Positions 12,601 through 39,898 of a DNA stretch of 64,000 bases are shown here, piece after piece (the stretch's first letter is position 1; every line of letters begins with the position of its first letter). The stretch comes from Terebella lapidaria (lineage: Eukaryota; Annelida; Polychaeta; Terebellida; Terebellidae). Location of the stretch: assembly GCA_949152475.1 (NCBI GenBank), contig OX424570.1:6374181-6438180 (forward strand), given 5' to 3'. The position numbers and the translations under genes are program-made. The notes under the pieces are model-generated. The model was given only the letters and a program-made list of their open reading frames with translations. It did not search any database and had not been told where the DNA came from.

Positions 12601-14039
12601 TGGCAAATGCTCATGAAAACCAGGCCAAAAAACTAATCAAATATAGATTTATTTAGTGTCCACGTATGCATTTGTCAGAATCCTTCAAGATAAAATGTAG
12701 GTTGAGCACTTTTTGTGCCATAATTAATGGCATTTCGCTTGAATTAGCAAGTTGGAAAGTCTGTTTGTGCTTGTCAAGAACCCACCAAAGCCTTCGAAGA
12801 GGGTATCTAGATTTGAATAGCCAGCAGTCTGTTAATAATTTAAAGTCGCCGCCCCTTTCATCTGCAGGGTGGGACATATTTGAAAACGGAACACACAAAA
12901 GATCAAAGATTCACGCGAATACAAAAACTGTAACTGGTATCTGGAAATTTTTTCGATGAGCTGTAGGAGTTGAATATTGTGATCACTACTTATATGCTGT
13001 TGAGCTTTACTTTTGTTTACATATTTTTTCAAGTTTTTTTTTCCAACACAAAGTATTTTTCAGCAGACAGAAAAAAACATCTCACATGACACTTGTGTGA
13101 AAATAGGCAGTTTTAGATGTGTAAATTACTGTTAACTTTTTTAATTCACTTTTCTATATCCATCAACCCATTTAGGATCAGGGGTGGGATAGAGGCTGCT
13201 GCCATCTGGTGGCCATTTTCTGAACTAATTCAAACTGCAATAAAATGATGGAGTTGTGTAGGACCGATCCTTATCTGTCATTGAAATTATTGTATTATGA
13301 TAAGTTGTACATGTTTTAGCATATATGATTATGAAAAAAGTGAGTCGAAAACACATTTCGGATATTGGCAAAGATATTACATTGTTTGTATGCACAATAA
13401 ATCACAAAGTGCTAATTAGAAACGGAACCATTTAAGCACAGAATCACAAGGGAAGAAAACAATTTGATTACATTGCCTGCCCCCCAAAATCATTTATAAT
13501 TCGGATATTCCTTATCAGCGCTGAGACCAGGTAACCTCACTTGACCCTCGCCATACGGTTTTCCCTACTTGTTCACTTAGCGCGTTCACTGGACGGAATC
13601 TCCGCAATTTCCACAGGCATCGTTCCGCTTCCCCAGACACATGACGAATTACGTCCGAGGTCATGTGATCTGTAATGGCAAAGTTATGTCATGAAGATTT
13701 CGTCCGCTGAATTGTCACTTTATCAGTTCATGAACAGAAGGCTTTTATGTGGTTTTTACGTAATTTGTTGCACGCTGCTTCGCCAGCAAATGGGAAAAGC
13801 GTGATATAAAGTTAAGTGGACTGCAGTGAGACAAGTGTATGAAATGGACATTTCTCTCTGCTATGTAAGCCCGGAGTCATTGAGTATAATTTGTGGAAGA
13901 TGGCAGTTTATATGAAAATGGTCCAAATGAAATAAAAATTCCTGAATGCAAGCAAAATTGATGCTATTCATGTTTCATCGAATTGGGTAATTGTATCCCC
14001 CGAACAAAGTTCGGCGGATACTATGGATTTGGCTTCGTC

Positions 14040-14063
14040 GTCCGCGTCCGCGTCCGCGTCCGC
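14040..14063. repeat. (gtccgc)4 hexamer microsatellite
   Basis: Four perfect hexamers lie immediately before the first 168-bp unit. They code for alternating Val-Arg in one frame, which is not evidence of a gene. Confidence 0.9.
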
Positions 14064-14072
14064 AGAGATTTT

Positions 14073-14500
14073 CTTGTGAACGCGCTACAGGCCGCAATTC
14101 TCACCCGATCACCATTATTTTTTGCAGGCACATATATAATGGTAAGATCCCGACACCAATCGATTTTGGTTGCCGTGGCAACTGAATTGGTCGTTTGGGG
14201 ACACATTTTGCATTGAAAACAGCCTGTTTGAGACACATGGCTTGTGAACGCGCTACAGGCCGCAATTCTCACCCGATCACCATTATTTTTTGCAGGCACA
14301 TATATTATGGTAAGATCCCGACACCAATCGATTTTGGTTGCCGTGGCAACTGAATTGGTCGTTTGGGGACACATTTTGCATTGAAAACAGCCTGTTTGAG
14401 ACACATGGCTTGTGAACGCTCTACAGATGGCAATTTTTGACGAATCTCGATAATATTTGGAAGTGTTGTTGGGAAGGGCTGTCACACGAAACCAATCGTT
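14073..14500. repeat. 168-bp tandem duplication plus a diverged third copy
   Basis: The units begin with cttgtgaacg at 14073, 14241 and 14409, exactly 168 bp apart. The first two copies are nearly identical (one visible difference, in the catatata segment), so the duplication is young. The third starts alike, then diverges. Because 168 is a multiple of three, an open frame on the minus strand runs through the copies; this is a by-product of the period. Each full unit contains the palindrome gttgccgtggcaac (14169-14182, 14337-14350). Confidence 0.95.
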
Positions 14501-14679
14501 TTTTAGAATGATCATATAAATATTAATATGTTAACAGCCTAACTTATTACAGAATTTTGAAATATCCATTTTGACATGTACGATCATTCCAATAGCCTGT
14601 ACAGTGGAAGGTAATGACACTGGTTTCTTGTTCAGAATGGAGAACTGAAGTTTTCAGTGAAAACAGGACAATATTACTG

Positions 14680-15975
14680 AATAAGTTAACATTAGTTTTA
14701 TTAGTTAAGTCTATTATTGTCCACAATAAAAATAGTTAAGACGAGAAACGTTTATTATTAAGCTCAACAAGGTAAAGGTTTTGTCCAGTACAAATTTCAT
14801 GGGTGTAACTGAATAAGTTAACATTATTTTTAATAGTTAAGTCTATTATTGACCACAATAAAAATAGTTAAGACAAGAAATATTTATTATTAACCTCAAC
14901 AAGGTAAATGTTTTGTCCAGTACAAATTCCATTGGTGTAACCGAATAAGTTAACATTATTTTCACTAGTTAAGTCTATTATTGACCACAATAAAAATAGT
15001 TAAGTCTACTATTGACCACAATAAAAATAGTTAAGATGAGAAATATTTATTATTATGCTCAACTAGGTGAAAGTATGTCCAGTACAGATTTCATGGGTGT
15101 ACTGAATAAGTTAACATTATTTTTACTAGTTTAGTCTATTATTGACCACAATAAAAATAGTTAAGACAAGAAATATTTATTATTGGGCTCAACAAGGTAA
15201 AGATTCTGTCCAGTAGACATTTTATGTCTGTAACCAAATAAGTTAACATTTTTTTTGCTAGTTAAGTCTATTATTGACCTCAATAAAAAATAGTTAAGAT
15301 GAGAAACAATTATTATTGAGCTCAACAAGGTTAAAGATTTGTCCAGTACAAATTTCATTGGTGTAACCGAATAAGTTAACATTATTTTCACTAGTTAAGT
15401 CTATTATTGACCACAATAAAAATAGTTAAGTCTATTATTGACCACAATAAAAATAGTTAAGATGAGAAATATTTATTATTAAGCTCAACAAGGTGAAAGT
15501 ATGTCCAGTACAGATTTCGTGGGTGTACTGAATAAGTTAACATTATTTTTACTAGTTTAGTCTATTATTGACCACAATAAAAATAGTTAAGACAAGAAAT
15601 ATTTATTATTGGGCTCAACAAGGTAAAGATTCTGTCTAGTAGACATTTTATGTCTGTAACCAAATAAGTTAACATTTTTTTTGCTAGTTAAGTCTATTAT
15701 TGACCTCAATAAAAATAGTTAAGATGAGAAACAATTATTATTGAGCTCAACAAGGTTAAGGTTTTGTCTGGTAGAAATTTCTGGGTGTAACCGAATAAGT
15801 TAACTTTATTTTTACATGTTAAGTCTATTATTGACCACAATGAAAATAGACAAGAAATATTTATTATTGGGCTCAACAAGGTGAAGGCTTTGTCCAGTAG
15901 AGATTTTATGTTTGTGACCAAATAAGTTAACATTATTTTTTTGCTAGTTAAGTCTATTATTGATCACAATAGCTT
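14680..15975. repeat. ~132-bp tandem array with a ~425-bp higher-order unit
   Basis: The anchor ataagttaac (variably ataagttaact) recurs at 14681, 14813, 14945, 15106, 15238, 15371, 15532, 15664, 15795 and 15922. Most spacings are 127-133 bp; two are 161 bp because a roughly 29-bp segment containing ctattattgaccac is doubled inside the unit. The spacing pattern 161-132-133 repeats as 161-132-131, so the block 14945-15370 was itself duplicated as 15371-15794. This is a satellite-type array; no coding function is supported. Confidence 0.95.
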
Positions 15976-15984
15976 TTTATGAAA

Positions 15985-16830
15985 ACATTGATCAACTTTT
16001 ACTTTGAATTTCAACTTGAGACCATGTTTGGCACAAATTATGAGTTAAAATATAACTTATGGTGAAGAATTCGATCTGGCTCCAATTTCGTCATCTTGAA
16101 ATGCAGTTTTGGTCAACTTTTACTTTGAATTTCAACTTGAAAGCATGTTTGGCACATATTATAAGTCGAAATATAACTTATGGCGAAAAGTTCTATCTGG
16201 CTCCAATTTCGTCATCTTGAAATGCAGTTTTGGTCAACTTTTACATTGAATTTCAACTTAATACCAAGTTTGGCACATATTATGAGTTGAAATATAACTC
16301 ATGGCGAAAAGTTTGATCTGGGTCCAATTTCGTCATCTTGAAATGCAGTTTTGGTCAACTTTTACTTTGAATTTCAACTTGAAAGCATATTTGGCACATA
16401 TTATGAGTCGAAATATAACTTATGGTGAAAAGTTCGATCTGGCTCCAATTTCGCCATCTTGAAATGCAGTTTTGGTCAACTTTTAGTTTGAATTTCAATT
16501 TGAAACCAAGTTGGGCAGGTATTATGAGTTAAAATATAACTTATGACGAAAAGTTTGATCTGGCTCCAATTTCGTCATCTTAAAATGCAGTTTTGATTAA
16601 CTTTTACTTTGAATTTCAACTTGAAACCATGTTTAGCCCATACATGTATTATGAATCGAAATATAACTTATGGTGAGAAGTTCAATCTAGCTCCAATTTC
16701 GTCATCTTGAAATGCATTTTTGGTCAAATTTTACTTTAAATTTCAACTTGGAACCAAGTTTGTAAAATATTCTGAGTTGAAATATAAATAGGTGAAAAGA
16801 TTGATCTATCTGTATTTTCGTTATTTTATC
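15985..16830. repeat. 121-bp tandem array, about seven copies
   Basis: The anchor atgcag/atgcat in the phrase cttgaaatgcagttttgg recurs at 16101, 16222, 16343, 16464, 16585 and 16712, a 121-bp period with a final 127-bp step. The unit is unrelated by eye to the ~132-bp unit next to it. Copies differ by several scattered substitutions, and the distal copies (after 16700) are the most diverged, suggesting an older expansion than the 168-bp pair. Confidence 0.95.
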
Positions 16831-18430
16831 AAACATGTCGAATGGAAATTCATATAAAGAGATTTCAGTGGTGATTTTGAATTCGACCTTCAATAACCTC
16901 GGAAAATCAGTGCAGCAGTTTTGGTGGGGAAAAGAAAACAGTTGTGACTTGGGATTTAACATTTCTCTGGTAATCTTTTTTAGCCCTTGCTCTAGTTTTT
17001 CACACTTGACAGTGATATATTTGGGGCAACAGAGATGATAGGGCTACGGGGGATACACCCAAGCGGTCGTAGGCGACCGAAAGCGTCTAGTTTACGATAT
17101 GCAATTACTACCTGAATGCTCTAATGATTTTTCTGACAATTTTACAGTTCAAGCCTAAGCAACTACAGAGGGAAAAATATATCAACCGAAAACAGAAAAT
17201 CAATAGCCGCAAAAAAGCAATCCTATTGATATTCATTTGGAGCTTGCGAAGTCAAGAACTGGGGTGTGATTTATAACTGGCAAATGGAAGGAAATTGGCC
17301 GTAATCTCGCAGTATTTGGACCCTTAAGCCCAGCAGACCATCAGGGTTGACATACAGTGGGCAATCACTGTGGGTCAAGGACATTTAATTGGTCTTGTTA
17401 CCATAGCAACAGGGTTCTCCATGGTGCTGAATTGGAAATTGGGTTAGCATCGAAGGGGATATTCATACATTTGCGATTAATTTACTTTATGCAGTAAATG
17501 ATTGTTATAGGAACTTACTGTCAAATTTATTCAATCATGTATGACAACGGGGTATTGCAGGTTTGGAAAAAAAGGTAGTAAGGAAGTAAGTAATTTATTT
17601 CACACTATACCGGTAATTTTTCGGAACACCATGAATAACAATTTATCACAAAGTGATAATATCAGAATAACTTTAGGTTCATTGCGTTGGTGAATTTGGA
17701 AGTAAGTAAAGTAAAAAAATAGAAATGTGCAGAGGAATTAAAAAAAAGGAAAAATACATTGCTGATAGATGTGTTCAGGCAAACCAAACAGCATAACATA
17801 CCTACTAATGGCATTTACATACACCCAGTTCTGAACTATGCTGTATAGCGCCAATACTGCTAACAGCTGGTCTATTATATAACTGTATTAAATATTATGT
17901 ACAATATATACACAAAAATTGTCAATCGAATAGCACTGACTTACATACACTGGGAATGAGTTGTTGCATTTCTGTGTTGTATGGATGCACTGTTCAGACG
18001 GTCCTGAGACGATTTTGCACTGAATAGGTAAGTTTGTGTGTTTATTAGTGTGTGCCTGTAATGTATTTGGCAGTTGACAACATTAAAATGGGAACAATCT
18101 TCGAATATAGCTGAATATTGGAGAAGTTGTATGATATGTGGAAGTACCATGTAACGACATAGTTAAATACCAGCATATGTTATGATATATGAACTGCGTG
18201 ACAAAAACATGCAGAAAACTGACATTTTAATTAGTCTTTCTTATGAATAATTGACGTCATATTTCAAGAAGAAGCTATCCTAGCAAGACAATATTAAGAT
18301 ATCGGCAGAGAAGAAATCACCAAAATCTTTATCATGACACTGACGTCGATAACAAAAGGCTTCTTGATATCACGTCTTGCTGACTTTCCCTCCAATCCCG
18401 GCCCAAAGTTAATAAGTTTTGTGCAAACAT

Positions 18431-18444
18431 GTTGCCATGGCAAC
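18431..18444. promoter_or_regulatory. Perfect X-box-like palindrome
   Basis: gttgccatggcaac is a perfect 14-bp palindrome and fits the RFX-factor X-box pattern GTNNCC-n-GGNAAC. It lies upstream of the large tensin exon. Binding is not shown. Confidence 0.4.
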
Positions 18445-20856
18445 AACATGAATGGGAGGGTGACGGTTTGATTAATTGACCCTGGGGATGATTTCTAGCC
18501 CGTAGGATTTTGGAACATTTGTCAAATTATTGTTATTGATATCAAGGGAATTGGGGGGGGGGGGGGGGGCGAGGGGGGGCAGTTGAGACGGGGCCCAATT
18601 TTATTGAGCACACCAAAGGCACTATAGCTTGGCGATACTATGAACGTAGTGTAGGCACAGCATATATTGTTGTCCCTGTCGTATTTCTGATGAAAGACCA
18701 TGCCTTGGTGCACATAAATGAACATTATTGAATAGGCCTCATGGCCTGAGGAAATTTTTATTGTGGGCTTTCCTGATCACCGTTGCGAGCAAGTGTATTC
18801 AACGCTTTATACTTGATGGAACATTAGCGTAAAAGATGTTTGTAAATTACAAGGTACAAAACAGTGATTTGTTTAACAAATTTACTATGGGGAAATTACT
18901 ATCAATAGCTAGGCAAGAGTCATTATTTGAGGCACATTTGCGTGTTTGTGTCAGTGGGTGACCAGTGAAAATACGCGAATCGCTGCTGAATTAATGAATA
19001 TTGTGGAAACGTTTCTTCATGCATTTTCAAAACAAACTGCTGATTTATTTGAGTGTTAGAGGTTGAACAGAAGTAAATTCTTCAAGTTGATGTTTACTAA
19101 TGGATGATTGTTGAAGGCGATGCAGGGTTGAGTTGAAGGGAAATAACCATTCAGTTAAAAAACGCAGTAGTTTCTTGAAATTTTCTTTTATTTCTGACAC
19201 AAACAAATCGCGAAACAACTAGAGGGGTACACTTACTAGAGGCAATTTGCACATTTGCACTCTTTTTGAAAAAAGAGCACACCATTGGCAGTATACATGG
19301 CTGCAATGAATGTTGTAGACACCTGTGCAAAAAAGACATGCACATATCAGGAATACATAAGACCTCTCTGCCCATACGGAATTTACATGCGAAAAGAAAC
19401 ATAAGATGTAAAAAGATACAAATTAAAAGATAATTTGAAAATATGGCTCTATCCCCCGGCCCCACCCTCCTTCCTTTCCCCCTTCTTCTACATTCACCTA
19501 TTTGTAAAGAAGATCTATAAAGCAATTGACGATTATAAACATCCTCTCCCAAGCTCCCCCCTCCGTAATAATATCCCCTTCATTGATTGAATAGACTCAC
19601 ATTACAGGGTTGGCCTGGGAGGAACAATGTAAACGGTTTTAATTTTTCCTTCCCCTAAAGAAATCTTATGGCCTGGATAGACAGACATATATCGTGATCA
19701 CGGCACGTCGCGAAGACATCTTTTTTCTACACGCGGGACCTTGGTTGTCATGGTTACGCGTCACATGACCACGCTGTGTCAATGCTACATGACACGCGAT
19801 CCGTCGCCTATATGATTATCATGTGTCAACTCGTGAACGGGCCCTTTGCATGCAATATCGGGATATGGCTATCAAGGAGGGGGGGAGGGGGGGTAGGTCG
19901 GAGCAAAGCTTTAGATATGCAAGGTCAGTGTTTCAAACAGGCTGGCAAAGAGTAATGGCCTGTAATGGACATGCATGATGTAGGAGTTTTGCCAAGGCAA
20001 TGATTATTGCAAGATTATTGCCTGCCAAATGGTTGGTAATGACTTCCCAGGGGAGTGTTGTACCTGTGTTAATCTCAACAGGTTATGGCCTTTTCGTGTC
20101 CTGTTTTGCAGTCTTCTTGATATGAATCTTTTGCTACATTTTTTTCAATTTTATGCATGGTCATGCCATACCAGATATATATGTTTAAATTATGATGTAT
20201 TTGTTGAAGATTGATACCTCTGCATGTGTTTTATTATAAGGCAATTTTCATTACCATGGATTTTCCATTCGTGACGTTCTTTGTAGATCACACACACGCA
20301 ACGCACGTGTGAATGTTTTCTCATGTCATCAAAGCCAAATGCATTATTGTTTGATCTAGCCAAATAAAAACTGTCAGGTCACGTGAGAAAATTTCCTACT
20401 GCACGTCATGTTTTCAAAAGTTAGAAATCATTGAGAAATATTAACATTCAAGATTTTTCTGAAGCCTTAATAGATGTCAACTAGGTGTCATTCATAGGAG
20501 TAAAAAAGTAAAGGGGGTGACTGTTAATAGTATGAAAACGTACTATGACTCACAGAAATTGTAGATCAAATTTCACCAATGTCACATCGTCGTTGGATAT
20601 TTGAGTTGCTTTCACCAGGTTTGGGAAACCCCACAACTTGATAAACACAGACCGCACCTTCACCCAGAGGCAGCAAGGCAGTTGTCAACGGAAACGATCG
20701 GTCTGCTACTGTTATCCCAATATGCCGATTGAACACTGCCACCGCAGGGAATAAGTGAGAGAGAGGAAAAAATTCAGCTTACAGCTTCAGTTTTCTGAAG
20801 CTTCCTAAACAACCACCCTGGTGGAGTGAGTTTTTCTTGTGCAAATACGTAGCCCT

Positions 20857-20884
20857 CCGTCCGTCCGTCCGTCCGTCCGTCCGT
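20857..20884. repeat. (CCGT)7 microsatellite
   Basis: Seven perfect tetramers in a row. It reads through as repeated Arg-Pro-Ser-Val in short open frames, which should not be taken as protein. Confidence 0.95.
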
Positions 20885-22099
20885 CAAACTTTGTTGTCAA
20901 TGTGGGGGAGAAAAAAATATCGGAAAAAGTGGATGGCCAGGCAGGAAGCCCTTGGGCTTTGGTCCCCAAACTTTCGCACCTGCAAAGGATCAGCACTCGA
21001 TAACGATACGACAAAGTCAATCCCAGCGTAAACTAGATCAAACGGACCGCGGGACAAGAAGGGGCACGGAAAGAAATCCTTGTTACTCGCGGGAGGCTTA
21101 CTGCGGCATCTGGGCTTGTATCATTATCATGTAGGCACATGGGAAATGTTTTCCAACGTGTGGATAAGTACAAAGAAGCCACGATTATTACCCATTGCAT
21201 AGGTCAATACAATATGTAGGGCATTCGTGAAAACAGAAGTGTCCTACTTGGAAAGAACTCCAGTTGAGAAAAAAAATACAATATTACATTGTACTGTATA
21301 TATGCAGAATACATTGCATATATGAATATATTACGATAGGCCACACGTGAAAAACGAAGAAAAAATTTCTACCCTAGTAAAATATAGATCTCCAATCCAC
21401 AATGGGTGAATATACCCCCCACCCCACATCCATTGTGCGATGTTCAATAGCTCAAGATGTACTTCCAGTCAATGAGCCTTATTGTCATGATAATGCCCAT
21501 CCATGCCCTCGTCATGCCCTGAGGTTAGATCCAATGCTCCGCAGGTAAGGTACCGTCCTTTGATTTGCAGATCAAAGACCGATGTAACGTTGGTCACGCC
21601 TGGGTAAATCACCATGGCAACTAGTTGATGTACTGGAGTTGATAGCTATAAGCATGTACAGGTCATTAACTTGGGAAGAGTTGTCCCTAGGCCATGGAAC
21701 TATTAGCTTTTTCCTTGTAGAATTGTGAATGATTAGAAAGAGTTATACCCTTCTACACGTTTTGGTTGTAATCAATAATCCCCTCCTTCTGCCCCCCCCC
21801 CCCCCCTCCCCCCCACAACCAACATTTCCCCCACCATCGAGCCAAGCTCTCCACCTGGGATTTCATGCGGTCAGCGTTAGCAAAAGTCATTAGCGACTGT
21901 AAATGCTCCATTTTCGACAAGTGTCATGTTGCATGGAGGAAATGCGATAGTCATCTTACTGTATATTTCCCCTCGTTAATTAGGAATTGCTGGGAGAAAC
22001 AATAGGGATATGTAGGTCATGTGACAGGGATGATCATGTGACCGATAATTGTCATGCCTCATTTGTTGACAATTGATGGCACATTTACCTTAGCCAGGG

Positions 22100-24072
22100 C
22101 GGAAAGCGCAGTTATTTCGATGGATAGGACATGTTGCCTCGTGGAGACAGCTGAATTTCAAACGTTAATTCGCCACTTGAATTCCCGACGTTTTTGACAC
22201 GTGTTGCTTATTGACTGGAATTATCGCTATCATCGCTTCAGTGGATATCGTCACGTTTTTTGGATTACGTGAATCAGCCATAATTTGATGGATATTGTGT
22301 CCACGCATTGCTGTGGATATAGTGAAGTACCTTTGACATACATTTAAAATTGGATCCTACGCATCCCCCCTCTGCTTGCAAAAAAAAAAACGGATAAAAC
22401 TCATAAAGAAATTGGAGATCAAGATCTCAATTCAGTGCGCTGTGGACGTCACCCCTCCGCACTTCCCAAATACAGCCATAAAGGAAAGAAAAGCCAACAC
22501 GGACGCTAGCTAAAGACAACCCTACATGCTTTTAGCAGCTATCCTTCAACATAGCGGGAGATATTGTCCCAGTTATCTCCGTAGGCGCAAACAGTCGTCC
22601 ATTGATCAGGCAAGTTGTTGCTCGGTTCTACGATTATTTCCTCGGGTGAGGTCTTATGTCACTCTGCTTGTTTGAGCAGCGAACCTTGGAGCATGGTGGC
22701 GGGAACCCCACAAAAAAGTCGTGTTTACTAGCGATACCTCACAGGCGCAGAGGAGAGAGAAAAATTGTGGATGTAAACTGCGTCACTTTGTCGGGACATG
22801 ATATCGTTCATCTTGTGCTAAATTTGTGACATTGTTGTTGTTGAATGTGTGTCGCTTTGTATAGCGGCTGTCAACTTGTTGAGATGGGGGCTTGTTTACG
22901 CAGGAGAGCACATTGAATCGATTCCCGCTTGATGGACGTCATTTCAAGTTTGGTGCGCTCGGAGGCACTCGGAGGCAGTATTGGTCGGACAGGCATGAAT
23001 TCACGGGCGATTATGCAGGAATAAATCGGCTTAGAACAATAACAATTTTAAGTACTTTTGCACATTTCCCAGAAATTTTATGACAGACTGCCAGTGGGGT
23101 TTTAATGCTCCGCATTGGGAAATCAGGGGGAATGCCAGAAGCCTTCACTGGTTGTTAGCCAAATGCGACAAAGCAAACGCAATAAAAGTGATCTGGAAAT
23201 TAGTGACTAACTAGTGAAAATGCTCGGGTCTCTGGGACAATGGCCAAATGGTGGGAGAATCGCAGCAGACGAATCAAACGAAAGCAAACTCCCAAAACTT
23301 TGTTTGCATTAATTACAAGCCTGCAAGGGAAAGCGACTCTGGTAGAGCAAGGAAGCTAGTTGTTTTTTTCTTGGAAATCGCTGGAATTCGGTTGACTTTT
23401 TATCATCCGATGGAGATAATGATAACAAGAACGGAGTGATTGAATCAGTGGGAGGGAAGAGGCACGGGCCACCTTCTGTTGTCACACTGTGTCACCGATA
23501 TCCACTCTCTCGTCCGGTGGGACGTGATTTATGCCTTTGTGCCTGGTCACCCCCAAACCCCGCAGACGGAAAGCATCTCTGAAACCCAACAGACAGGACA
23601 TCATTATGCAAATGAGCGCTGGTCATTGTCATTGTAGCTTTGCTACTTTCAGGAATGAATTTAATTAAGCAGAGACAAAGCCTTAATTGGCTTCACATGG
23701 CTTCTCAGTCGAACTCTCGAATAAATCATAGCAACGCTTCGTGTTGAATTCATTTTGGCCAAGAGGTCGTGGGACTTGGAGTCACTTTGTTTTTTTGCGG
23801 TATTGATCGCGTTATCGACCTGTTCCACTCAGTACAAACACGGATAAGATCAGGTCGGGCACTTTGTGGAAGCACGCTCAGGCTCAAGGATGACTGTGTC
23901 ACTTCAAAAAGATAACATTTGTTATGAAATCATTATTCGTTGACAGTTGACGTTGATGCCTGTTAACTTGAGAGAGATGCATCACATTTCTGCCTTGCAC
24001 TGCCCCACGCTCTGGAATTAATAAGATATTTTTTCCGAGCACTAATTATCTGTCGGATATAAGTTGCTCGGC
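22100..24072 (+). promoter_or_regulatory. Possible promoter/5'UTR or intron end upstream of the large exon
   Basis: Composition rises in G+C and CpG compared with the repeat-rich DNA before it, notably 22430-23000 and 23440-23600. It includes a 10-bp doublet (ctcggaggca twice, 22959-22978). An in-frame stop at 24043-24045 closes the reading frame above the first ATG at 24073. A branch-point-like cactaat followed by an AG at 24062-24063 could be a splice acceptor instead. Whether transcription starts here, or the exon is reached by splicing, cannot be settled from sequence. Confidence 0.3.
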
Positions 24073-27000
24073 ATGGATGTGAACCAAAAGTTGATCGCGG
24101 AATTGGAAGCGGTGAAGGTGGATCTCGATAGAATAACTTTCGACACACTGGACTTCCAACAGCTAAGTCCAGTGAAGAGATGCATTTCCCGGTCGGAGTC
24201 CGAGGTCACGAGAATCAATAACATTGACAATCCATTCAAGAAGTACTACAAAGCTGGTCACAACAACGTTTTCGACAAAGATAAGCTTGATGTCAGTCAA
24301 TACTTGACAATTCCACGGTCAAAAACTGAAAGTACTTTCGAGAAGTGGAGTAAATTTTTCGAAAGGAATGCAGCGATGGAGCTTCCCTTAGCAATGGCAT
24401 CTCCAAAGGAGTCGTCTGGATCCAGAGAGTCTCGTATCCGGGTAAGGTCCCACGGATCTGGAGCCAAGCATTCCGGATCCGGTTCGCTGGATAGATCTCG
24501 TGAATGTTCCCCGTCCACATTTCAAATCACGCAGGGAAACAATGCATCACTTCTTGGAAAAGATGGGATGAATGTCACAACTCAAGAGGCAATTAACAGA
24601 GAAAAGGAGGGGAAATGCAATAATATGGAGCCCTTGCATGCAAGGAAAACATGTACAAAGCAAAGGGATCCAATAATGGTTAACACCCTGCGCAAACACA
24701 TGGAGGTGGATCTTATGGAAGGTCGAGGTCAAGTCAGTGAGTCCACGAAGATAATCGGGCCGCGATTCACGCCGGGTATTGACACAGCAAACACAAAACC
24801 ACCTGGACAAGGTTCTATTGTTGCTACATCCCATGCAACGCCAAACAGAGTTCTACTTGACATACATAGAGGTACATGTAACTCACGGCAAGGTATTGCA
24901 CATTATGACGGAGGCGAGCTGCATTCCATCGCACGCAACAGCCGTGGAATTGACGAACATTGCAAGGCAAAAAACGAAAGCATTATTGATGACTTTACGC
25001 AAGGGCGGGAATTAACGGCAAAACACTGCAATCCCGCAGCAGCTGGTTATAAACATGACGGTAAACAGATCGACGCAACACGCTTATCAACCAATAACAT
25101 CCATGCATCGATGTCATCGGTCGCCGGTTGCTGCTCTTCAGAGGACGCTACAAGCCTTCAACGATCAAAGCAAGTCTCAAGTGACCAAGCTGACCATTGT
25201 AAGGAGGTGACCTTAGGATCGGTGACCGGTCAGTTTCCCGACAGTGACCGGAAGCTCCCTAATGAGCTGGTCACTACAGGTGGTGATCAGTTTACCGACA
25301 ACGCTTGCTATATGGAGAGGCACTTTCGGGGGATGGACGAGCGGGATATTTATCCGACGGTCATTCGGAAAGCACACCCAGAGCGCAATCGGCAGTGCGT
25401 AGGTGTCCGCGGTAACGGCAGTGGGACGCCTCATGGGCGGGAAGTCAACGCTAGTGGACCACCAGTCATTAGTGACACTTCTACCGTCACTGCTACTGCT
25501 GACAACGTGCAATTATCGGGAAGTGGTGAGGCCTGTTTGGCCAACCCCCACGTGGAACGTTCACGTCAATGCTGGACAGCTGTAAGTGGGAGAGTAAATA
25601 GTAGTGATTATCACACGTTGGCTTCTGTCGATGTCCTGCCGAAACACTTGCAAACTTGCAGTGCCCGGGCAAGTCCCGAGATGGAAAGTGAAACTGAAAC
25701 TTCCGGATTTGTGTCTTGTGCATCAGGATCGGAGGTCATTAGTGGTTCAACTTCGATGACTTTTCAGTCAGCTTCGCCAGTTTCTGAAGACATGGAGGGG
25801 CCAACCTTTGACAATATTGATGACATTTTGGCAAACTGTTCGGATTATCAGTCACCAGCATCGTTCAATAGAAATTCCACGACAAGTTTCAGTGAACTTC
25901 TTAAAAGGAATGAGAAAAAGTCACAGAATGTCGGAAAAGAGAGAAAGTTTCCCAATGTGGGCAGGATTTGGAAGTCTCCAAGGATTAACCGATCAAAGAA
26001 AGATGGCCAAAGTGGTAAAACATGCAGCAAGAAAGTTGTCGCCCTTACTCCCGACACGAAACACAAGGAAAAACACTTCAATGGATATGTAAAGTGTGTG
26101 GACAAATTAGACAATGTAACCTCTGAACCCAGGTATCAAGAAATTAAACCGAGAAAGACGAGGGCTTCTAATGATGTCTCTCACTCCGTTTCCATGGGAA
26201 CCAATGATGGAAAGAATGGTGAAGGCTCTAAATCACCTGTTTCCATGGTGAAAAATGACTCGCAGATGGTTAGTGCCTGTGGCTGTCACCAGGTGGCATG
26301 TGACAGGAAAAGTTCCGCGACAGAAAAAGACACTACTCGTGCCCTTGGGTGCGAAAACTGTCAAAAACTTCAAACTGTCGGAAGCTTACAGCAAGGGAAA
26401 GTCGCCGACAAAATGTCTACAGCCGCTGTGATAAAATCTAGTCAAAGCGCTAATGAGAACTCCCTGGAAGACTTGCGTAATTGTCCATCAAGGAATTCAA
26501 CTTTGCCCATTTGTGAACTTCCACAGGAAAATGAAGGCAAAGGAAATGATGATAAAAATAGCGAGAGAGATCACTTGCTTCAAAAGAGTCGAGAAAGCCT
26601 CTATGACAATTCCTTGTATGAGGAAATTGATGCATTGTCTGATATCGCGGAAAAGTTGGAAAGTGACAGACAAAAACTTTTACCTGGGGCAACTGAGAAA
26701 CAGTCTAGTCATACTGCAATTGGGCGAGGAAGTGATTGCATTCTCGACAGATTGCGGGAAGAACTTTCGACCAATCAGAGACCAGAGATCATTCCCGGAC
26801 TTGTCACGATGGACTCAAGTGACAGCCATAAATACGTCAATAAATCTTACGTAGGAACTCCACAAAGTAGTATCTACGAGGAACTCTCCTCAAAGAAAAG
26901 TTCGATATCAAGTACGGTGGAGACACCTGGGGGACAATTTGGGAGCGGATGGAGCGAAAAATTTCGCGATAATTCCACTTCACACCTCATCGGTGACGAG

Positions 27001-27093
27001 ACGAAAAAGAAGAAGAAAAAACAAAAGAAATCATTCTGGCAACGGCTTTGTTGTGTTGGTGGGGAGAAAGACGAGATTCAGGATATTGAAAAG
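24073..27093 (+). CDS. TNS: Tensin, giant N-terminal exon (about 1,007 residues)
   Basis: The first ATG is at 24073 (MDVNQKLIAELEAV); an in-frame TAA at 24043 lies above it, and a TTG at 24064 is not a likely start. The frame stays open for 3 kb and ends at a donor (aag|gtaata, GT at 27094) in phase 0, matching the C1 exon at 31516. No folded domain is recognised. The protein is Ser/Thr/Asn-rich and probably disordered, with a short helical N-terminus and a loose internal repeat around the motif ERxRQC. Near its end are candidate SH2-binding tyrosines (Y844, Y849 in YEEI, Y921 in YVNK, Y935 in YEEL), then KKKKKKQKK (978-986) and SFWQRLCCVGG. Vertebrate tensins known to me have only short leaders before C1. 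Without splicing, the frame would stop at 27117 after seven more codons. Joining to C1 is inferred from phase, strand and lack of any other partner; a separate gene is the main alternative. Confidence 0.8.
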
Positions 27094-30000
27094 GTAATAA
27101 ATAGAGATCACATTTAGTGTCCACTGCTGTCAATGTCTATGAAAGGAATATTTTATTGGGAACTATTTATACCCATTTATCCGTTATTTGTGCTATTTCC
27201 ATATTTGGATGTCCGGATATATCGAATGTTTGCGAGGGAGTTAAGTATGAAATATTCAAGTCTATATGCAATATTCACAAAAGCTAACCAGAGAGGAAGC
27301 TAAAATATTCGATTAGACCAAAAAAGACAAAAATTTCATATTTATGATTTCCTTCACTGTTTAATTAGCCATATTCACAAGTATCCATTACAATGCTCAA
27401 GTTGTAATAACACTTGGGATTTTGATGTTTAACAAGTTTGAAGCATTTAATTTTAATTGGTTCCATGTGTTGTCAATTTATCAGCACTTTCCCAGAATGA
27501 AAAGTGTCTCGAAAATTAAGGAGAAATATAACAGTTGCTATCGCCACGTACGTGTGATAAAAATTCCAACTACTCTACATAATGAAATTATGTTCTGTCC
27601 TGAAATCCTGATGTGTAAACGAAGTAGATCACTAAATTTTGTCAAACCTTCATAGGCTTTCTATTGTTCCCCCATCGTTAAAAATGGCTGAAACTTTCAT
27701 GGAAAAACATGAAGTCATATGTTTTTCTGTTATTTTTACATAAATTCAGTAGGCATCATGTCTCCAAAGTGAACACATAAAGTACGTCTTTGCTGGTAAG
27801 TTGACAAAGCAAACCTTCGCTAAACTGAGAGCCCATTGTTGCCACGGTGATGTTTTTGGCCCCCACTGTTGATTTTAGATGGTGGTTTGTCTCCCATCAC
27901 TTGTAAATCTGAGAGAAATGTCCCTAGATAATATGGTTCAGTTGTTACTGGCCCATTAGATGAATATTAAATGCACTTATTACAATGTATCTATATGCAG
28001 GTAACATATCTGAACCTTGGGTTAATAATTATTTAGGTTTCTATGAATATCAGTTTTTGGAAGTTAAACAAGCATTGAAAAAAAGCCAATATTCTATATA
28101 TGTCACGTTATGAAAGTTTTAGGTCAAGGGTTGTATCACATTTCTCCCGTTTAGGAATATCAAGGTATTCACTTGTGGGTATTCAAATAAATTTTTAAAA
28201 AGTTTCAGGATGAGAAAATATTTGGAAAAAATGTGAATGTAATAAAGGTTGAAAATTGTTAAGATTATCCATATTGAGATTCGTGGTATCAACCACTTTC
28301 TAGCGCCTTCAGGGCGGTTTGCTGAGTTTCTTAGCATTTTCAGATTTGATGCAGCAACTTGTTCAGATCGTGTATTGCGGATTAAACTGCCAGGATTATG
28401 CGGATTAATCCCATGAGTAATTTCCTCAGTACCGCTTATCAGTTGCAATCTGTGAGATTTGTTGGAACGAATGAAAAGATTTGAGGATGTGTTTGAGATG
28501 GTCCCCTCAACATGCTCAACCTTTGAGTGTAGGGTTAAGGGGTGATCTCAGAAATTATCAAGTGTACTTCATGGTGTTTGAGATCATTCAGTTATATTAA
28601 AATAGATCGGTAATCCCAAAAAGAGATTTTCATCTGACTTGAAAATTTACTTGAAGTACCTTTCATGGCATTTTCATCTATTTCGATAACACACTCAATG
28701 TCTTGTTGTAATACTTATTGTACTTATAAGAGCAGACTATTTGTAGACATTGGCAGTGAGATCATCCTCATCTATACAACAAGGTATCAATTTTTATTGC
28801 GTATGTTTCTTTTCAGTGCATCCATCAAAATGGAATTACATGTACATGAAAAGAAATTACATATTTCATCAGTTTATTATTATCCAGTTTAACATGCTCA
28901 GAGCATATTAATATATTCAATTTATGGATGAATTTTTCCTGTATATCAAACATGATGTGCGATAATGAAATGATACCAGAATTTATTTATGCAAAGTTGG
29001 ATTACATAATATTCTATCCTTGTGATGCTATAATCAATAATAGTTAATATGATTCATTGCAAAATTACATGTTATATACCTTCTATTGTAAGTTACCCTT
29101 CAATATCATAGCAATATAAATATATTTGGAATGCTAGGTGGAATTTAATGAAATTAGCCCAAAGCATACAGTAAGATCAATATAGCTGCTCATGTGTTGT
29201 TGTTATTAAAAAATAGCTTGATATATGACGCAGCATGCTGGTAACACAGAATATATCAATCGATAAAAATGCCAGTGAAAAGTTGTAACTTTACAAGCAG
29301 ACGCGGCAATAAATCGCATGTGCCGTGCATTTATCTGTTTATGCCAAGATTGGAAATCCATATGTTTACATTTATATGATTTGCAAACATTATGATGATT
29401 ATATCAGTGCCACATGTCTGGGAAAAGTAATCCATGCATGCATTATGCCTAGAAGTGGCTGCAACTTTGCAAAATGAGAGGGAAGGGGGCATTGCTTTTG
29501 TCCATATCTTCCAACTCCTCCCCCCCCCCCCCCCTCCTCTGGGCACTAATAGAATGACCCCTGTCCAGAACTATGCCTCGTAAGTGCAACATAGATCAGG
29601 GAAGTCATTAAAAAAACGAAAACAAGTCTCTAACTGGGTTGTAATGCAGTGTTACCAAATCCCCGAGGAAAACCATCCAATAGGCCGTGTAGAAGCTTAC
29701 TCGTAGCTTGTTTGTGATTCAGTGTTGTGAAGTTTTTTTGCTGGTGATACTGAATTGATCTCCGTGAATGTTTTTGGATTGATGGCAACCGAGTGATGTA
29801 TAACATGATGTTATGTAGACTTGCTTATTAGATGTCAAAGTGGGAACATGTATCATACTAAAATATCGTAACTTCTGCGTGTGTATCCGGCACTAGGGAG
29901 GAATTGATGCTATGTTTTATAATTGTGATGGAAAACGTACTGTCATGGGGTATTGAAAACAGATGAAAATAATTCTGACTTTGCAGAATATCACACTTTT

Positions 30001-31515
30001 TAAGTTGATATTCTTTTCCTCAATACATGCTCAGATATAAGAACACAGAAAAAAAGGAATTTCTAGCATGCGACTTTTAAGTTTTCACTCAGATGTTGGA
30101 TTTGAGGGAAAAAATTTACAGGAATACCACAGAAATGTACAAATTGGATAACTTCGATAAACTGTTCATATGCCTGGAATTTGTTGTGGTTTTCACACTA
30201 CACAATGGGAACAAAGCTTCGGTCAGCTGTTCTGCAGTGGATGGATTAGTCTAAAGACTGCAAAAAACAAAAACAAAAAAAAAAAATTATGGAAGACCAG
30301 AGCACATGGGGACCTAGGAAGGGGAGACAAATAAAAAATATCGAGAATTTGAGATGAATGCGTCATCTTCGACTGCCTGGCTTAAATTTTTAAGCCTTTT
30401 ATCACTGCACGGTGAAAATGGATGATTGGTTATGACCTGACCAGAGCTTGGAGTGTCAAATTTGGCTTCGGCCTGGTGCCAGGCTGCTTGGAATGATCGA
30501 ATGGTCTAAACCCCCCCCCCCCCCCCCCTCTTGTCTCAATAAAATGTAAACAGTTTTGGTCGTTTTTCCGGGAGACAGAAACCACAGTCGCTGTTTTATA
30601 ATCATTTCTCAGACGCAATTTGGAGACTTAAAACGGGACTTTTCGCACGTGGGATTTTGCGCTGGATATTACAGTTTTCTGGACTGATTCTTTGGATATT
30701 TGCAACCCAGCTTGGATATCTCATTTCATAAATCATGTGTTAATAATAAGTTTTAAATCATACACTGCTTCCATGAAAAAATAAAACCAAAATTGGAGGA
30801 TTATGATTGGATCTGAATGGACAATTTGAAAAAAAAAATCTGGAAAAAGCGCTAAGAATTGATGTATTCTACGAATAAAAATTCCCATGTTAACTACCAA
30901 GAATTTATGAACATTGCATCATACTGTATCCATAGCAACAATGAGGAATCGACACAGTGCTTTTATTGATTCTGAGGATTTCACTTTCTGCTCGGTAAAC
31001 TTGCACAAAATCAGTTTTGCCCATCAGGTGCTAAGTGGCAAAGTGTGTCAACATAATTTCTGACAGTTATTGTATGTTTTGTATTCTTTTCCTCTTGTAC
31101 GAATATGTCAACTGAACAACTTCCATCTTTGTTTAGCCGCCTACTTGTATTTTGCGATTGCTTTTCAGGATATTCGATGACTTTCATTAAATTTTGATGG
31201 AAAATATTTGGAGAAACTCATATATGCAGAAATATATACATGTACTGAGCAGGCAGAGGTCTTTTGTGCCTCATGTGAATAATATGTCAAAGCCATGTAT
31301 ATTCGACCTTGACCTCTTGTGTCTTAGATCTTGGAAATTTTCTGTATTTCACTTTGATAAATTCGTATCTGCATATTCGACGATGCCATGACCTGATCTG
31401 ACCTTGACATTGTATCAGAACATTGAAACCGACAATGACTAACTTTGTTCTGCAATGAATAACTATGTTCTTCATTCGACCTTGCCGTGATTTGACCTTG
31501 ACCTTGCCCTTGCAG
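27094..31515 (+). other. Intron between the large exon and the C1 exon
   Basis: Intron of 4.4 kb, GT at 27094-27095 and AG at 31514-31515. AT-rich, with poly-C runs at 29520-29534 and 30511-30528. The end is unusual: the pyrimidine tract is built from repeats of gaccttg. No further exon was recognised. Confidence 0.7.
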
Positions 31516-31627
31516 CCCCAGGACTTGGAGGGCAGGTTACACTCGTTCCGACCTCAGACGTTCAAGCGACCGAGATACTGCGGCCAATGTAAACAGCTCG
31601 TGTGGAACCAAGGCAGCTCATGTCGAG
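31516..31627 (+). CDS. TNS: Tensin exon: first half of C1 zinc domain
   Basis: This exon begins in phase 0 with PQDLEGRLHSF and ends in phase 1 before gtaagg. It carries most ligands of a C1 (protein-kinase-C-type) zinc domain: H1016, then 12 residues, C1029-x2-C1032, then 10 residues, C1043 (numbering from the ATG at 24073). The short 10-residue spacer and the GSSCRVC join with the next exon match the atypical C1 of long tensin-1 and tensin-2. C1 domains bind lipid or protein at membranes; tensin C1 has not been shown to be a classical diacylglycerol sensor, so no ligand is claimed. Confidence 0.93.
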
Positions 31628-31934: not shown

Positions 31935-31972
31935 TGTGCAAGTTTGTCTGCCACAAGAAATGTGAACCCAAG
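31935..31972 (+). CDS. TNS: Tensin exon: second part of C1 zinc domain
   Basis: A 38-nt exon flanked by tttcag and gtaagt. It reads VCKFVCHKKCEPK after the split Val codon, giving C1046, H1051 and C1054 of the zinc site in the order C-x4-H-x2-C. It ends in phase 0. The last ligand of the motif is not here but in the next exon, 13.2 kb away. Confidence 0.93.
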
Positions 31973-34900
31973 GTAAGTAGTGCAGAAAAACTCCACCAGG
32001 TGTCAGTGCTGTTCTTAGTGATGGACCTTAAAAAAAATTTTTTCAAGAATTGAAGTTTTTGACGTAATGAGATCTATGATGGGAAATACCGAAACCAGAA
32101 CACCGTAAACAGATAACTCGAAGAATGTTTGTCTTTTTGCATAATATTTCCTCCGCCACCGCATGTACATACATGTGTCACATTTGCGTGACTGGGCAAT
32201 GTTGCGACAGGTTTTCATTGGGTGCTTTCACCGCTAGCTATTAGCCCTCGATTGTAAGTGTTTTATTTGGTCATACAGCAGTCGGGACTTGAACGTTACT
32301 AACTCGGATGAAAGTTGTGATATTTATGGAGATTTTAGAGTGTTTTTCATAGCAATCACATGGTTTTGAGTGTCTTGTGGGAGAATATCAAAGGTGAAAA
32401 TTTTTTTCTCTCGACTGAGGCCAATAAACTTATGGGGCCATGTGCTTGATGTAATTTAGATTATATCACTTTGAATAATGGGCGTCGCTGACAGGAATCA
32501 ATTAATTATGTTAAAAATATATGGTGGTAGAAACACGTGGTCACTAATTATTTCATAGGGCAAATGTTTGGTATCGATATCGCTTTCTTTTTACGGGACC
32601 TTCCCTTTTGTTATTGTTCATGCAAGGAACTTGTTCATGCGTTTTGCACAGTTTGTTTAGCGCTTTCAGAAAACTGTTAGCCAGCCATAAAATTGATAGC
32701 AGGAATGTGATGTAAATTGTCTATACAAATAACCCGAATGAAATGGTGTCAACTCTATCTTATATATGATATAATCTATATATATCAAAAACCAAATCAG
32801 AGATCTATGTTTAATACATATATATCCATATTGAGTTGTCTGTACAAAAAAATACTTGTGGAAACTGTCGCGAACAATTTAGCTCTCCATTCTCGACAAG
32901 CAGTTATACAACCAACCTGTTAACCTTCACGACCTGTGGACCACACTGGTATTTCACTTTCCACTTTGTTCAAATATCGTAATAATCAGCTCGGCACACA
33001 TATCCGGTACTTTGCGGTATTCCATTCCACATGAATTATATCCAACTAGGTTGGGTTTTATATTAACATGTATATAAAACACCACTTAGCTGGATATAGG
33101 TGGAGTATAAGGACCATTGCAGAACACTCAAAATCTTGTGAAATTTATTGAATAATGTGCAAGAATCTTGCTGAAAATTTTTGTTGTAGGGAGGGGATTT
33201 TTTCCATCAGATACGTGTTGTATATGTCTGCCAGTTTTGTCATATTCCAATGAATCATATGTAAATTTCCTACAATATCAGCTCATTTGTCTTGATTTGG
33301 TTTAACAAGCTCATTAGCCTGCTCTAAATATCACAAAAACACAAATAACATGCAGTTATTGTCACAACATTAATACTGTAAAGTACTTGTAATACATGTA
33401 TATATAGTGGAACACATATAAAATTCTGACAGATTTTTAACAGATATTTTACACTGTTATGGGTTGAATGCCTGAATTCAAAATATGCGATGGATAGATC
33501 AATGGGATACATGTTTTAACGATGCAATGTCATTGATTTTCTGAGTTTATTAGGAAGGAAAATCATAGGTTGTCTCAGGAATCAAGATGTTGAAATTTGT
33601 TAAGCATAAATTTCCTTCTGGACAAAGGAAGCAGGTATGTTATATTATTATGCGCTTTAACATTTCAAACCGTATATATATGTCAGTGATATCTTTGAGG
33701 GAATTGCAAATGATTGATGTATTTTTCCTCCATGTGCTGTAATGAACATATTTCAAAATTAATAAAAAATCAATCATTTTCATGGCGGAAATCCACATGA
33801 TTGGTGCAGATTTTGCTTTTAGTTATACCCATAACACTCTCACAGATTTGTATTCAAACTCGGTAGAGAGGTAGAAATCATGAAAACTGTGAATATGCAT
33901 TTGACCTTGGAAATACATCAACAAAGTTTCTTCGCGAAGCAATATTTGTGCGCACAAGGTCTCCAAACATGAAAGCCGAACGCGCTGTGTGCAAACATCG
34001 TGTGCCTCCCTTCGTTTTTGATCACTTGCTTGCTCGTTTTCGTCTGTTGACCAATGGTCAAACACCACCCCCTCAAACTTTCTTTCATGTTGCTTACCTA
34101 GTGCACTTCATGAATTTGTACCGTATGTTATTTTCCCAAATAGGAGGGGCTATATTTCACTCTCAGCAAAATGTGTCACCATCAATATTATAAAAATGAT
34201 AAATTACATTGTAAATATTGATAAAATTTCGTCAAATATGGAAAACAGCCAAATTCACGATAACTTCCTATATACCCCCCTCTCCCAATATTTCGCCTCT
34301 TCAAGTTGACACATACTTGAAACCATATGTCTTATTTTTCAAACTAAGAACTGCTACTTCTATATAAAGCGTGTAACCTACATGTTCCTCGCCCTATCCC
34401 CCCCCCCCCCCCCCCCCGTTTCGTAGTCAATAGTCGAACTTAACAAAACGTTGGGGACAACTTCAGCACAACACACTGTTGTTGCTCAAAACAAGCTAGG
34501 TTCCCCTGTGAGTGCTAAAAACAATAGCGCAGACACATAATGGCTTCCAACAAGTGAACAAGAAAAACACCCGAATAAAAATATAAAAATAACGGCCGAC
34601 ATTACATCAGCTAACGAACGGACGGATTGAATCTACTTCAGTATTAGCCGGCTGTAGACTATCTATCCTTGTCCGAAGTTATGACTGGAAAAGTGGAACA
34701 CTTGTTGTGTAGACGGATGAATTTGCACTGAGATTTTACTCTGTTTCCCTGGATAAATGCGCAGTTAGAGTTTGTTCCAGTTCTGATTTAATCCCAGGAA
34801 AGCTGGTGATCTTATGTTGGATGTCGTGAAAGACAAAATAGTATCGGTGATGATGGACGATGGATTACAGGCCGATTAGGAGTATTTTGCTTGGTGTTTG

Positions 34901-37199
34901 CTGTCCGTATAAGAAATTGTGTTTGGGATGAAATTGAGAGAAGATATGGATATAGGCATTTAACTTGATGATGTTGGATGTGTCTCCTATTAGAAAAGGA
35001 TATCACAGTTGAAAAAATGTGACTAAAATGAAGTTGGAATATGTAATGAACTGAGTGATATTAACATACAATTGAAATGGGTAAATGTGGACTCCAAAAA
35101 CGTATATTTCTGAGGTGAGTCGAAATGACGGAATTTAAAAAAAAAAATTCTTGATTTCAGTTCGATGGACTATGGTCCTTAATACAGTTAAAAAAAAACT
35201 CTTTCTAATATAAGTGATATAACCTTGTAAAACATGTGATTTGCAATGAACCATATATCTCCTTGTGCAAAAATTCCTCGCCCACTAAATTCACATCTTC
35301 CCGTTCAAGTGAAGTGTCTCTTGACATGAAAAGTATTTCCCTTTTTGTCACCGAACATATCAATATCGGTAGACGAACGGCACTTAAAGAACACTGTCCC
35401 CCTGCTATCGATGGTATAGTGAACGAGTGGTCCCTACTTTGTAGTGACAATCTGCTCGTCATAAGGACTTATCACTGTTTATATTTCTTATCAGTGATAA
35501 GTGTGTAAAGTTATTGTTAGAAAGTAGGGCATAGATCAGGTCGATGATCGTACGGTAAAACACTACATGTGTGTGATTATGCATTATTGCTGGTGCACCG
35601 GTGTATTGATAAATTATATGCTTAGTAATGTACAGAAATCATGTTGTTTTGACATTTTTTGGTCACAACTTTATAAACCACAAATATTTAATTACTGAAT
35701 TTCGTTCAGCTTTGTTTTAGAAAATATAACTTGAAAAAAAATATGCTTTCATAGCTTTGCACAATTGTGCCAGTGCTTTGTGAAAATATGTCAAAGTTTC
35801 AAATTCTTCAAAGTCTGGATATTGGAGTTTCATTTGCTGGGAATACCCTGATAATTATAGTAGCAGTGCTGTCTCCATCTGGTGGGGAAAGTAGAAAACA
35901 GGGGAACCAAGTTCATCATTATGATAGATTTCCTACCTTTATGGACGCATTATGATTTTTGCTTTAATCTGCATTGTCTTGTTCTTTGCAGGAAATTTCA
36001 ATTGCAATTGTATTGAGGCATTATCCAATTGCGATGAAGATTTCAATTCTGTTCCTGATGATTTTCGAAGGAATCTGAAATATACAGATATATTGATTTT
36101 CATTGTAATAAAATTAACATGACAGTATCTGAGAAAAGCGAAAAATGTTTGATGCAAGACTCATACTAATATTACATGTAATCATGCCTCTATTTTTAAC
36201 CTCTGCATTTTCCTCAATAGGATTATACATGTGGTTCATTTTGATGCAATGTATGATCTTGTATTAGCTTTGGATCGAGGCTAATTTCCCTAGCAACATG
36301 CCGGAAATCAAGTTGGATGTCATTTTGTCGGAAAGCAGGAAATTTAGGATTGATGTTGGATAAAATGACAATTCTTCCTGAACTATGAAACATTTTATAC
36401 CTACATGTGCGTGAATATATTTGCATTGAAACAGGAACATGTTGGCATTGATATGTTACACATGTGTATTTGCTTGCAGGGCCTGTACAAGAGGAAAGAC
36501 TATGCATGTCCATGAAATGAAATATGGGGAAATAATTGTATGTCCAAATAAGTTTCACATCAATAGGTCCATGAACTGTTTCATGCTGAACAATACCAGG
36601 ATAGACTCGCAAGTTCAGCAACTATTCGTTTCACCGGCTTGATTATAGCATGCCGCCTGCATTTGTTAACATTCTGGTATCATGCACACCGCTGAAAAAA
36701 GCAACCTGCATTAAATATGATCAGTCAATATCGATGAGAAAAGTAACAGAACATTGGCTAAGTGGGTTCTATTTGCACATCCGCATGTTTTGACGGACAA
36801 AAGATCAGAAATTCCTATACAGACGGTTTGTTATCTCGTAATTTAACGTGTTTTATGAACACAATTGAACAGTCGCAGACAGCAAACACGAAGTATCCTA
36901 TCGTGCCACATTTTGTATGATCCTTCGAAGTTCTTTTTTTCCCCCATCCCCTGTCAACGATAAAAGACATTGTGATGCAACTAAACAGAAACAATTATCC
37001 GTGCATCAATCTCGGTCGGTCGCCATTATCCTGTCATATAACCCCCCCCCCCCCATACCAGCCTTTCTTCTTAGCCTCGCCCCCCTCAAATCCAGCTCCC
37101 TAAATCATGGTGATTCCCAGGGATGGTCCTTTGTAAATAGGCGCTACTTCTTCACATCATTTCACTGCGGGTAGCACCCTAACAACTGAGAATTCGAGG
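31973..37199 (+). other. First part of the 13.2-kb intron, no gene seen
   Basis: The intron runs from GT at 31973 to AG at 45191-45192. This part is AT-rich and shows only a perfect 11-bp inverted repeat (35467-35502), an imperfect palindrome near 33055-33082, and poly-C runs (34398-34417, 37042-37054). Short open frames are unsupported. Confidence 0.6.
35467..35502. repeat. Perfect 11-bp inverted repeat
   Basis: acttatcactg (35467-35477) and cagtgataagt (35492-35502) are exact reverse complements with a 14-base spacer. A hairpin is possible; no function is evident. Confidence 0.85.
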
Positions 37200-39254: not shown

Positions 39255-39283
39255 CCGGCTTCCTTCCCCATCCTGTGATCGCG

Positions 39284-39316
39284 ATGGATAACCTGGAATC
39301 AATCGGATGGCGGCCG
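39284..39316 (+). CDS. Candidate alternative first coding exon (MDNLESIGWRP)
   Basis: An ATG in strong context (gatcgcgATGG) gives 11 codons to a possible donor ccg|gtaaca at 39317, phase 0, the same phase as the exon at 45193. Eight bases of polypyrimidine and CAG at 39254 suggest an untranslated exon could splice in just upstream. The donor is weak. If used, the protein would start between C1 and PTP. Confidence 0.25.
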
Positions 39317-39898
39317 GTAACAATGTGGCGGGATAAATAATTTACATGCTAATGCTTTATCGGGATATGTTGTCCGTAAAGGCGGCTAATATGTTGAAAT
39401 ATATCAGTGACAGCCCTTTCCAGCTGTGATTATCGTGGAGTATTGAAGTTTTCATGAGATATGATTCTGATTGGGTGACGAGGAATGGTTTTATCTGGAT
39501 TTTATTCTCGCCTTTTAAGACCATTGTTACATTATATCGCTAATCAGGGTAATAAAGAAGTGGTACCGCCCAGTTCATTCACTTCCGCCCGCAGGGGAAA
39601 GATAACATTCGATACCTTATGGAGTGAAAAAGCATGATCGCAATGGCTCGAATTTCAATTCGCTCACGATAAATACTGGTGTCCAACCAGATCTCAAATA
39701 TCATTGGAAATCACAGAATTTTCACCGGAAAAAGTTATGACATTTTCCGTAATCTGATGCGGTGGTAGAACAATGACACGGAGCGGAGCACGCCAGCCAC
39801 AATGCTCTGTTGGAGCGAATAAACACGATATAGGACCAAGATTATCGAGATGATCTCCGGGATATCGTGATTGAGGCGGAATTCTATCCCTTTCGGCG

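Follow-up and report, generated by a model that had tools for sequence, protein, structure and literature searches.

Tensins connect sites of cell adhesion with the cytoskeleton. Animal scaffold proteins often carry long, disordered extensions that change fast in evolution. PTEN carries no C1, SH2 or PTB domain and no leader, and only tens of residues precede the C1 domain of the tensin TNS2. In the excerpts of two papers considered here (PMC12383349, PMC10315744), vertebrate TNS2 is described with C1 just ahead of PTP, followed by C2, SH2 and PTB. The excerpt of the former calls C1 exclusive to TNS2, a late or lineage-specific gain, and describes TNS1 as lacking the catalytic Cys, and that of the latter mentions a tensin 3 isoform containing C1. 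According to the excerpt of a third paper, the disordered region of tensin 3 docks partners such as talin R11 (PMC9462884). Among the literature matches listed, the titles and abstract openings held no description of a long N-terminal extension of a tensin or of an annelid tensin.

Here, we analyzed a window of 64,000 nucleotides (G000:C17:6374181-6438180) from the annelid Terebella lapidaria, whose genome comprises 762 Mb in 438 contigs. Judging from the sequence, positions 24073-27093 of the plus strand probably form the exon with which coding begins in a long isoform of tensin, for which a single gene was found in this annelid. The donor after 27093 would be spliced to the C1 exon at 31516, and the product would read leader (1,007 aa)-C1-PTP-C2-linker-SH2-PTB. 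Such a protein would resemble TNS2 in the order of its domains, and would differ from it in the roughly 1,000 residues proposed before C1, as against tens. Unlike PTEN, the proposed annelid protein would have C1, SH2 and PTB domains in addition to the leader. It would also resemble tensin 1 and tensin 3, with their PTEN-like PTP-C2, long disordered linker and SH2-PTB, but in those proteins the long disordered stretch separates the PTEN-like part from SH2 and does not precede C1, as the excerpt of PMC9462884 describes for tensin 3.

The open frame itself is real. Both the ORF listing and reading of the sequence gave a plus-strand frame free of stops from 24046 to the stop codon at 27115-27117, whose first ATG, at 24073, stands in good context (CTCGGCATGG, with G at -3 and +4) and is followed by 1,007 codons without a stop up to 27093. 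The whole stop-to-stop frame amounts to 1,023 aa; the window has 32 stop-to-stop ORFs that attain 100 aa, and the next longest of them has 217 aa. When the same 3,072 bases were subjected to 1,000 mononucleotide shuffles and read in six frames, the longest ORF obtained was 220 aa (median 118), so a frame of 1,007 codons is far beyond chance. Codon-position asymmetry was present in all six 504-base blocks of the exon, with G at 0.29-0.36 in the first position and 0.19-0.27 in the third, and T at 0.10-0.21 and 0.24-0.33, respectively; this bias was absent from the 504 bases past the stop codon (first-position G 0.17, T 0.35). The 3-kb exon is real and very probably coding. Taken per 1-kb block, CpG ran at 0.76-0.95 over 22-26 kb and at 0.50-0.60 over 27-31 kb; this was set aside as a promoter sign, since coding sequence confounds the profile.

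Downstream on the same strand, ten tensin exons were placed, with C1 in three and PTP and C2 in seven (about 45929-49399), and their phases are consistent in the working model. Exon C1a (31516-31627) encodes the first half of the C1 domain, enters in phase 0 and leaves in phase 1, and contains no Met codon. Exon C1b (31935-31972; VCKFVCHKKCEPK) runs from phase 1 to phase 0 and was located by a looser regular expression, a stricter one having found no match to the second half of C1, and exon C1c (45193-45231), with an uncertain 3' end, supplies the last Cys of the domain. The first PTP exon (DMDLTYITERII; 45929-45990) starts at 45929 by acceptor score or at 45939 by phase, and is followed by PTP exons at 46782-46879, 47266-47319 (IINLSEKREDIQRLNPMK) and 47658-47845, the last of which holds the P-loop. 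The end of PTP and the start of C2 share an exon (48228-48485), and C2 continues at 48757-48959 and 49334-49399, the latter with an uncertain donor (TGA/GTGAGT, 1.0 bits). At the junction from 45231 to the first PTP exon, the start at 45939 fits the phase and scores -1.8, and that at 45929 scores 8.8 and needs a phase 0-to-2 exon, none of which was present in 32,000-45,929 at an acceptor score of at least 6 and a donor score of at least 4.

Splicing of these exons, with the start at 45939 used throughout the Pfam and structure comparisons, yielded a C1-PTP-C2 model of 369 aa. It matched PTEN_C2 at 6.1e-34 (positions 1-132 of 133), PTP families, C1_1 at 2.4e-11 (43.7 bits; cut-off 26.5) and PTEN structures at 8.3e-40, and it has the PTEN-like PTP followed by a PTEN_C2 domain by which we recognize a tensin. 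In the spliced model, the C1 zinc pattern H-X12-C-X2-C-Xn-C-X2-C-X4-H-X2-C-X7-C is complete, with a 10-residue spacer within it, and lies ahead of PTP. When the whole genome was searched with C1_1 and 150 of 173 candidates were scored, the tensin C1 was not among the 16 matches listed; its division into three exons is the probable cause. The C1-PTP-C2 tensin that an earlier note on this DNA had placed downstream is therefore real, and the C1 exon at 31516 does begin in phase 0.

The putative C-terminal part lies further along the same strand. The only PF08416 (PTB family) matches in the genome, among five candidates scored, fall at C17:6461841-6462017 and 6462578-6462730, equivalent to 87661 and 88398 on the scale of the window, and an SH2-like exon (FVVRDSNSF), recognized by regular expression only, lies at 84807 on that scale. 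These SH2 and PTB exons are 35-39 kb beyond the C1-PTP-C2 exons, and a tensin gene running from the leader through the PTB exons would span about 64.5 kb. Neither the PTEN_C2 nor the PF08416 matches in the genome revealed a second tensin gene.

Several observations favour placing the large exon in this gene. The open frame of C1a has a single in-frame ATG further upstream, but this ATG precedes the acceptor and so falls within the intron. C1a enters in phase 0 and lacks a start codon that could be used; C1, if translated, therefore needs an upstream coding exon that ends in phase 0. No competing 0-to-0 exon of 15-600 bases was found between 27093 and 31516 (acceptor at least 5, donor at least 2). 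Five rows running from an ATG to a phase-0 donor were obtained in 15,000-31,516, and three of them are alternative short frames at 17541, 21503 and 22526 (15, 14 and 40 codons; donors 4.78, 7.45 and 4.26), which could serve as short leaders that skip the large exon. It is also conceivable that tensin transcripts open with the Met encoded in the first PTP exon and lack C1. Homologues provided no tie between leader and tensin in Pfam or PDB. The best reading of the locus is nevertheless the one suggested before, in which a single exon supplies a long leader that precedes a C1-PTP-C2 tensin and is in phase with it, given the coding leader that C1a needs, the in-phase donor at the end of the frame and the lack of a rival 0-to-0 exon at these thresholds. 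The expectation that such a leader would roughly double the N-terminal half understates the enlargement: 1,007 aa would stand before a C1-PTP-C2 part of 369 aa.

The 3,021-bp frame ends in phase 0 at a donor, as claimed previously; the site is AAG/GTAATA after 27093, 21 bases ahead of the stop codon, with T at +5. Its score of 4.02 bits, on a generic metazoan matrix, is weak to middling. The ten other donors of the working tensin model, of which some low-scoring ones are putative sites picked by phase and homology, range from 0.66 to 8.68, five above and five below the donor at 27093. Only two of the 167 GT dinucleotides in the ORF score at least 4.0, namely those at 24441 (5.08) and 27093, and both are in phase 0. 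As a control designed after the site was seen, with the threshold fixed at the observed value, we took both strands of an extended region of 93.7 kb, which contain 718 stop-to-stop ORFs with a length of 50 aa or more. A phase-0 donor of at least 4.0 occurred in the last 30 bases of seven of them, the large frame counted in; the number rose to 14 when the last 60 bases were allowed, and to 25 when phase was disregarded within the last 30.

The donor after 24441 (CGG/GTAAGG) raises the possibility that the main tensin mRNA leaves the exon early. The segment 24073-24441 would then serve as a leader of 123 codons and the rest of the frame would rarely be included, which is compatible with a joined long exon. 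We regard this as a tenable though minority reading: the site outscores that at 27093 and is likewise in phase 0, but the stop-free frame and the codon-position pattern run about 880 codons past 24441. Because both persist there, translation of that region should be frequent enough to preserve it.

It is less likely that 24073-27117 is an independent, intronless gene that stands upstream of tensin on the same strand by chance and encodes a 1,014-aa, mostly disordered protein with a polybasic CysCys membrane anchor near its C-terminus. The frame from ATG to stop is a complete ORF: seven codons past the donor at 27093 come to a TAG stop (27094-27117, a read-through tail if the donor is unused, with an AATAAA at 27096 inside it), so the frame also makes sense as its own gene, and this counts against joining. 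The donor, moreover, reaches just 4.02 bits, and poly(A) signals follow downstream (ATTAAA at 27966 and AATAAA at 28186). This reading, however, leaves the C1 exon without an obvious nearby leader, and places by coincidence at the extreme end of the frame a kind of donor that occurred in few of the control ORFs. Between the stop and 27966 there is no AATAAA or ATTAAA, which is only mildly unusual in AT-rich DNA.

The earlier note had further suggested that an acceptor at 24063 could make 24064-27093 a symmetric, 3,030-bp optional cassette with coding exons upstream. The length is a multiple of three and positions 24062-24063 do read AG, but on a matrix built from this gene's own acceptors (nine for acceptor scoring, ten for the exon scan) this AG scores -1.0, which 27.7% of AGs in the extended region match or beat. 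The nine acceptors that built the matrix lie in the top 1.1% of AGs, favoured by having made it, and the acceptor at 45939 of the working model is also at chance. The AG ahead of 24040 is at chance level too (-0.3; 23.9% of AGs), and the in-frame stop at 24043-24045 comes next, so that any intron ending there could lie only in the 5' UTR. With a site that scores like a random AG, the cassette is without support, and we consider it highly improbable; a well-placed ATG follows nine bases past the proposed acceptor, and 24073 is better read as the start of the frame.

The leader had no family in Pfam and no chain in PDB at E values up to 1, and pattern matches in prokaryote (582) and viral (460) contigs were in no case confirmed, an absence that is expected. 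That the frame has no function and is decayed or derived from a transposon, as this absence of known homologues might suggest, is scarcely credible in view of 1,007 stop-free codons with codon-position bias and no second copy: a six-frame protein search of the genome (E up to 1, six candidates scored) and a DNA search with 23400-27700 (E up to 1e-5, one candidate) both returned the leader's own locus only. The proposed first coding exon of the long isoform draws on the open frame, the shuffles, the codon-position composition, the lack of a second copy in these searches and the donor statistics.

We then considered what this leader would add to the protein. Disorder-promoting residues make up 54.0% of it, and FoldIndex is negative in 659 of 956 windows of 51 residues and not negative in the other 297; by its composition the leader is likely disordered, though not uniformly, and the disordered module of about 1,000 residues proposed beforehand should be qualified to that extent. 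AlphaFold2, run on the leader alone as a single sequence, gave a mean pLDDT of 34.1, with 951 of 1,007 residues below 50, values that without an alignment are no evidence of disorder. Helices were predicted only at residues 2-13, 89-97, 831-841, 847-869 and 882-900, and residues 1-123 hold two low-confidence ones.

Two tyrosine motifs occur in the C-terminal part of the leader, YEEI at residues 849-852 (26617-26628) and YEEL at residues 935-938 (26875-26886). YEEI is the classical ligand of Src-family SH2 domains, and both motifs may act in this way. The pair exceeds what composition would yield: at least two YEE[ILV] motifs arose in one of 20,000 shuffles in one run and in none of 20,000 in another, the motif having been chosen after the sequence was seen. 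An LD-type motif, IDDILANC at residue 582, was also noticed; a match of this kind was present in 357 of 5,000 shuffles and is not claimed. A polybasic-aromatic-dicysteine patch (KKKKKKQKKSFWQRLCCV) occupies residues 978-995 (27004-27057) and may be a membrane contact or palmitoylation site. The last 30 residues of the leader, which open with KKKKKKQKKSFWQRLCC, would bring this polylysine-Trp-CysCys patch beside C1.

If the large exon is joined to tensin, the leader would probably act as a mainly disordered scaffold arm that offers YEEI and YEEL as tyrosine sites for Src-type SH2 domains, and the Lys-rich Trp/CysCys patch, directly ahead of the lipid-binding C1, PTP and C2 domains, could add membrane affinity. 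Use of the donor at 24441 could produce a second isoform with a short leader, in which residues 1-123 remain and the arm, 884 residues, is missing. Known tensins dock partners through a long disordered region, so another such arm ahead of C1 would vary an established pattern. The annelid P-loop (47658-47845) is one residue off the HCKAGKGRTG of PTEN, and alignment to PTEN structures placed an Asp-His pair in the region of the WPD loop. The catalytic Cys is present, unlike in TNS1 as described in the excerpt of PMC12383349, and the annelid tensin looks catalytically competent, perhaps on PIP3. A fuller scheme, at this stage decidedly speculative, would make it a membrane-tethered, PTEN-like phosphatase scaffold with a 1,007-residue disordered arm, Src-SH2 docking sites, a polybasic CysCys anchor and a competent-looking P-loop, its arm being removed or retained through in-phase splicing at 24441 or at 27093, respectively.

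Joining of the large exon would mean that a tensin can bear a second large disordered region, ahead of its lipid-binding domains, and would place the C1-PTP-C2 order in a protostome, contrary to the account of C1 in the excerpt of PMC12383349. The complete C1 zinc pattern of the annelid protein and its TNS2-like placement suggest that this order is old, which on sequence grounds argues against C1 as a late, TNS2-specific gain. The locus would also carry a lesson for annotation, as such a 3-kb exon might readily be miscalled as a separate gene.

Elsewhere in the window, ten long ORFs of the 32 listed (one at 28 kb on the minus strand, the other nine at 1-20 kb and drawn from both strands) gave no match above the curated Pfam cut-offs. 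On the minus strand at 14021-14530, an ORF with repeated segments (AFTSHVSQTGCFQCKMCPQTTNSVATATKIDWCRDLTIIYVPAKNNGDRVRIA...), whose Pfam matches were all below cut-off, is probably a tandem repeat and not a gene.

PTEN_C2 had five matches in the genome, two of them from this tensin gene. Another was carried by a frame of contig G000:C184 with one TAG and two TAA codons inside. Of the 15,782 bases of this contig, 9,000 were read; when TAA and TAG were decoded as Gln they contained nine frames of at least 200 aa, and when the standard code was applied they contained none, although a code that leaves one stop codon makes long chance frames easier to obtain. In a 61-kb contig, at G000:C417:44633-46450, lies a divergent cox1 that bears an insertion and an internal TGA. 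The assembly thus seems to hold foreign contigs, and a worm-associated ciliate is their likely source. On mitochondrial contig C438 the genes follow one another as nad4L, nad4, nad1, nad3, nad2, cox1, cox2, cox3, nad6, cob, atp6 and nad5, with a single strand encoding them all (named by eye from translations, with atp8 and the RNA genes left out). This is the conserved order of annelids and places the animal among them. Between atp6 and nad5, at about 13190-13600, lies a long alternating repeat (MYMYMY in code 5) that is probably the control region.
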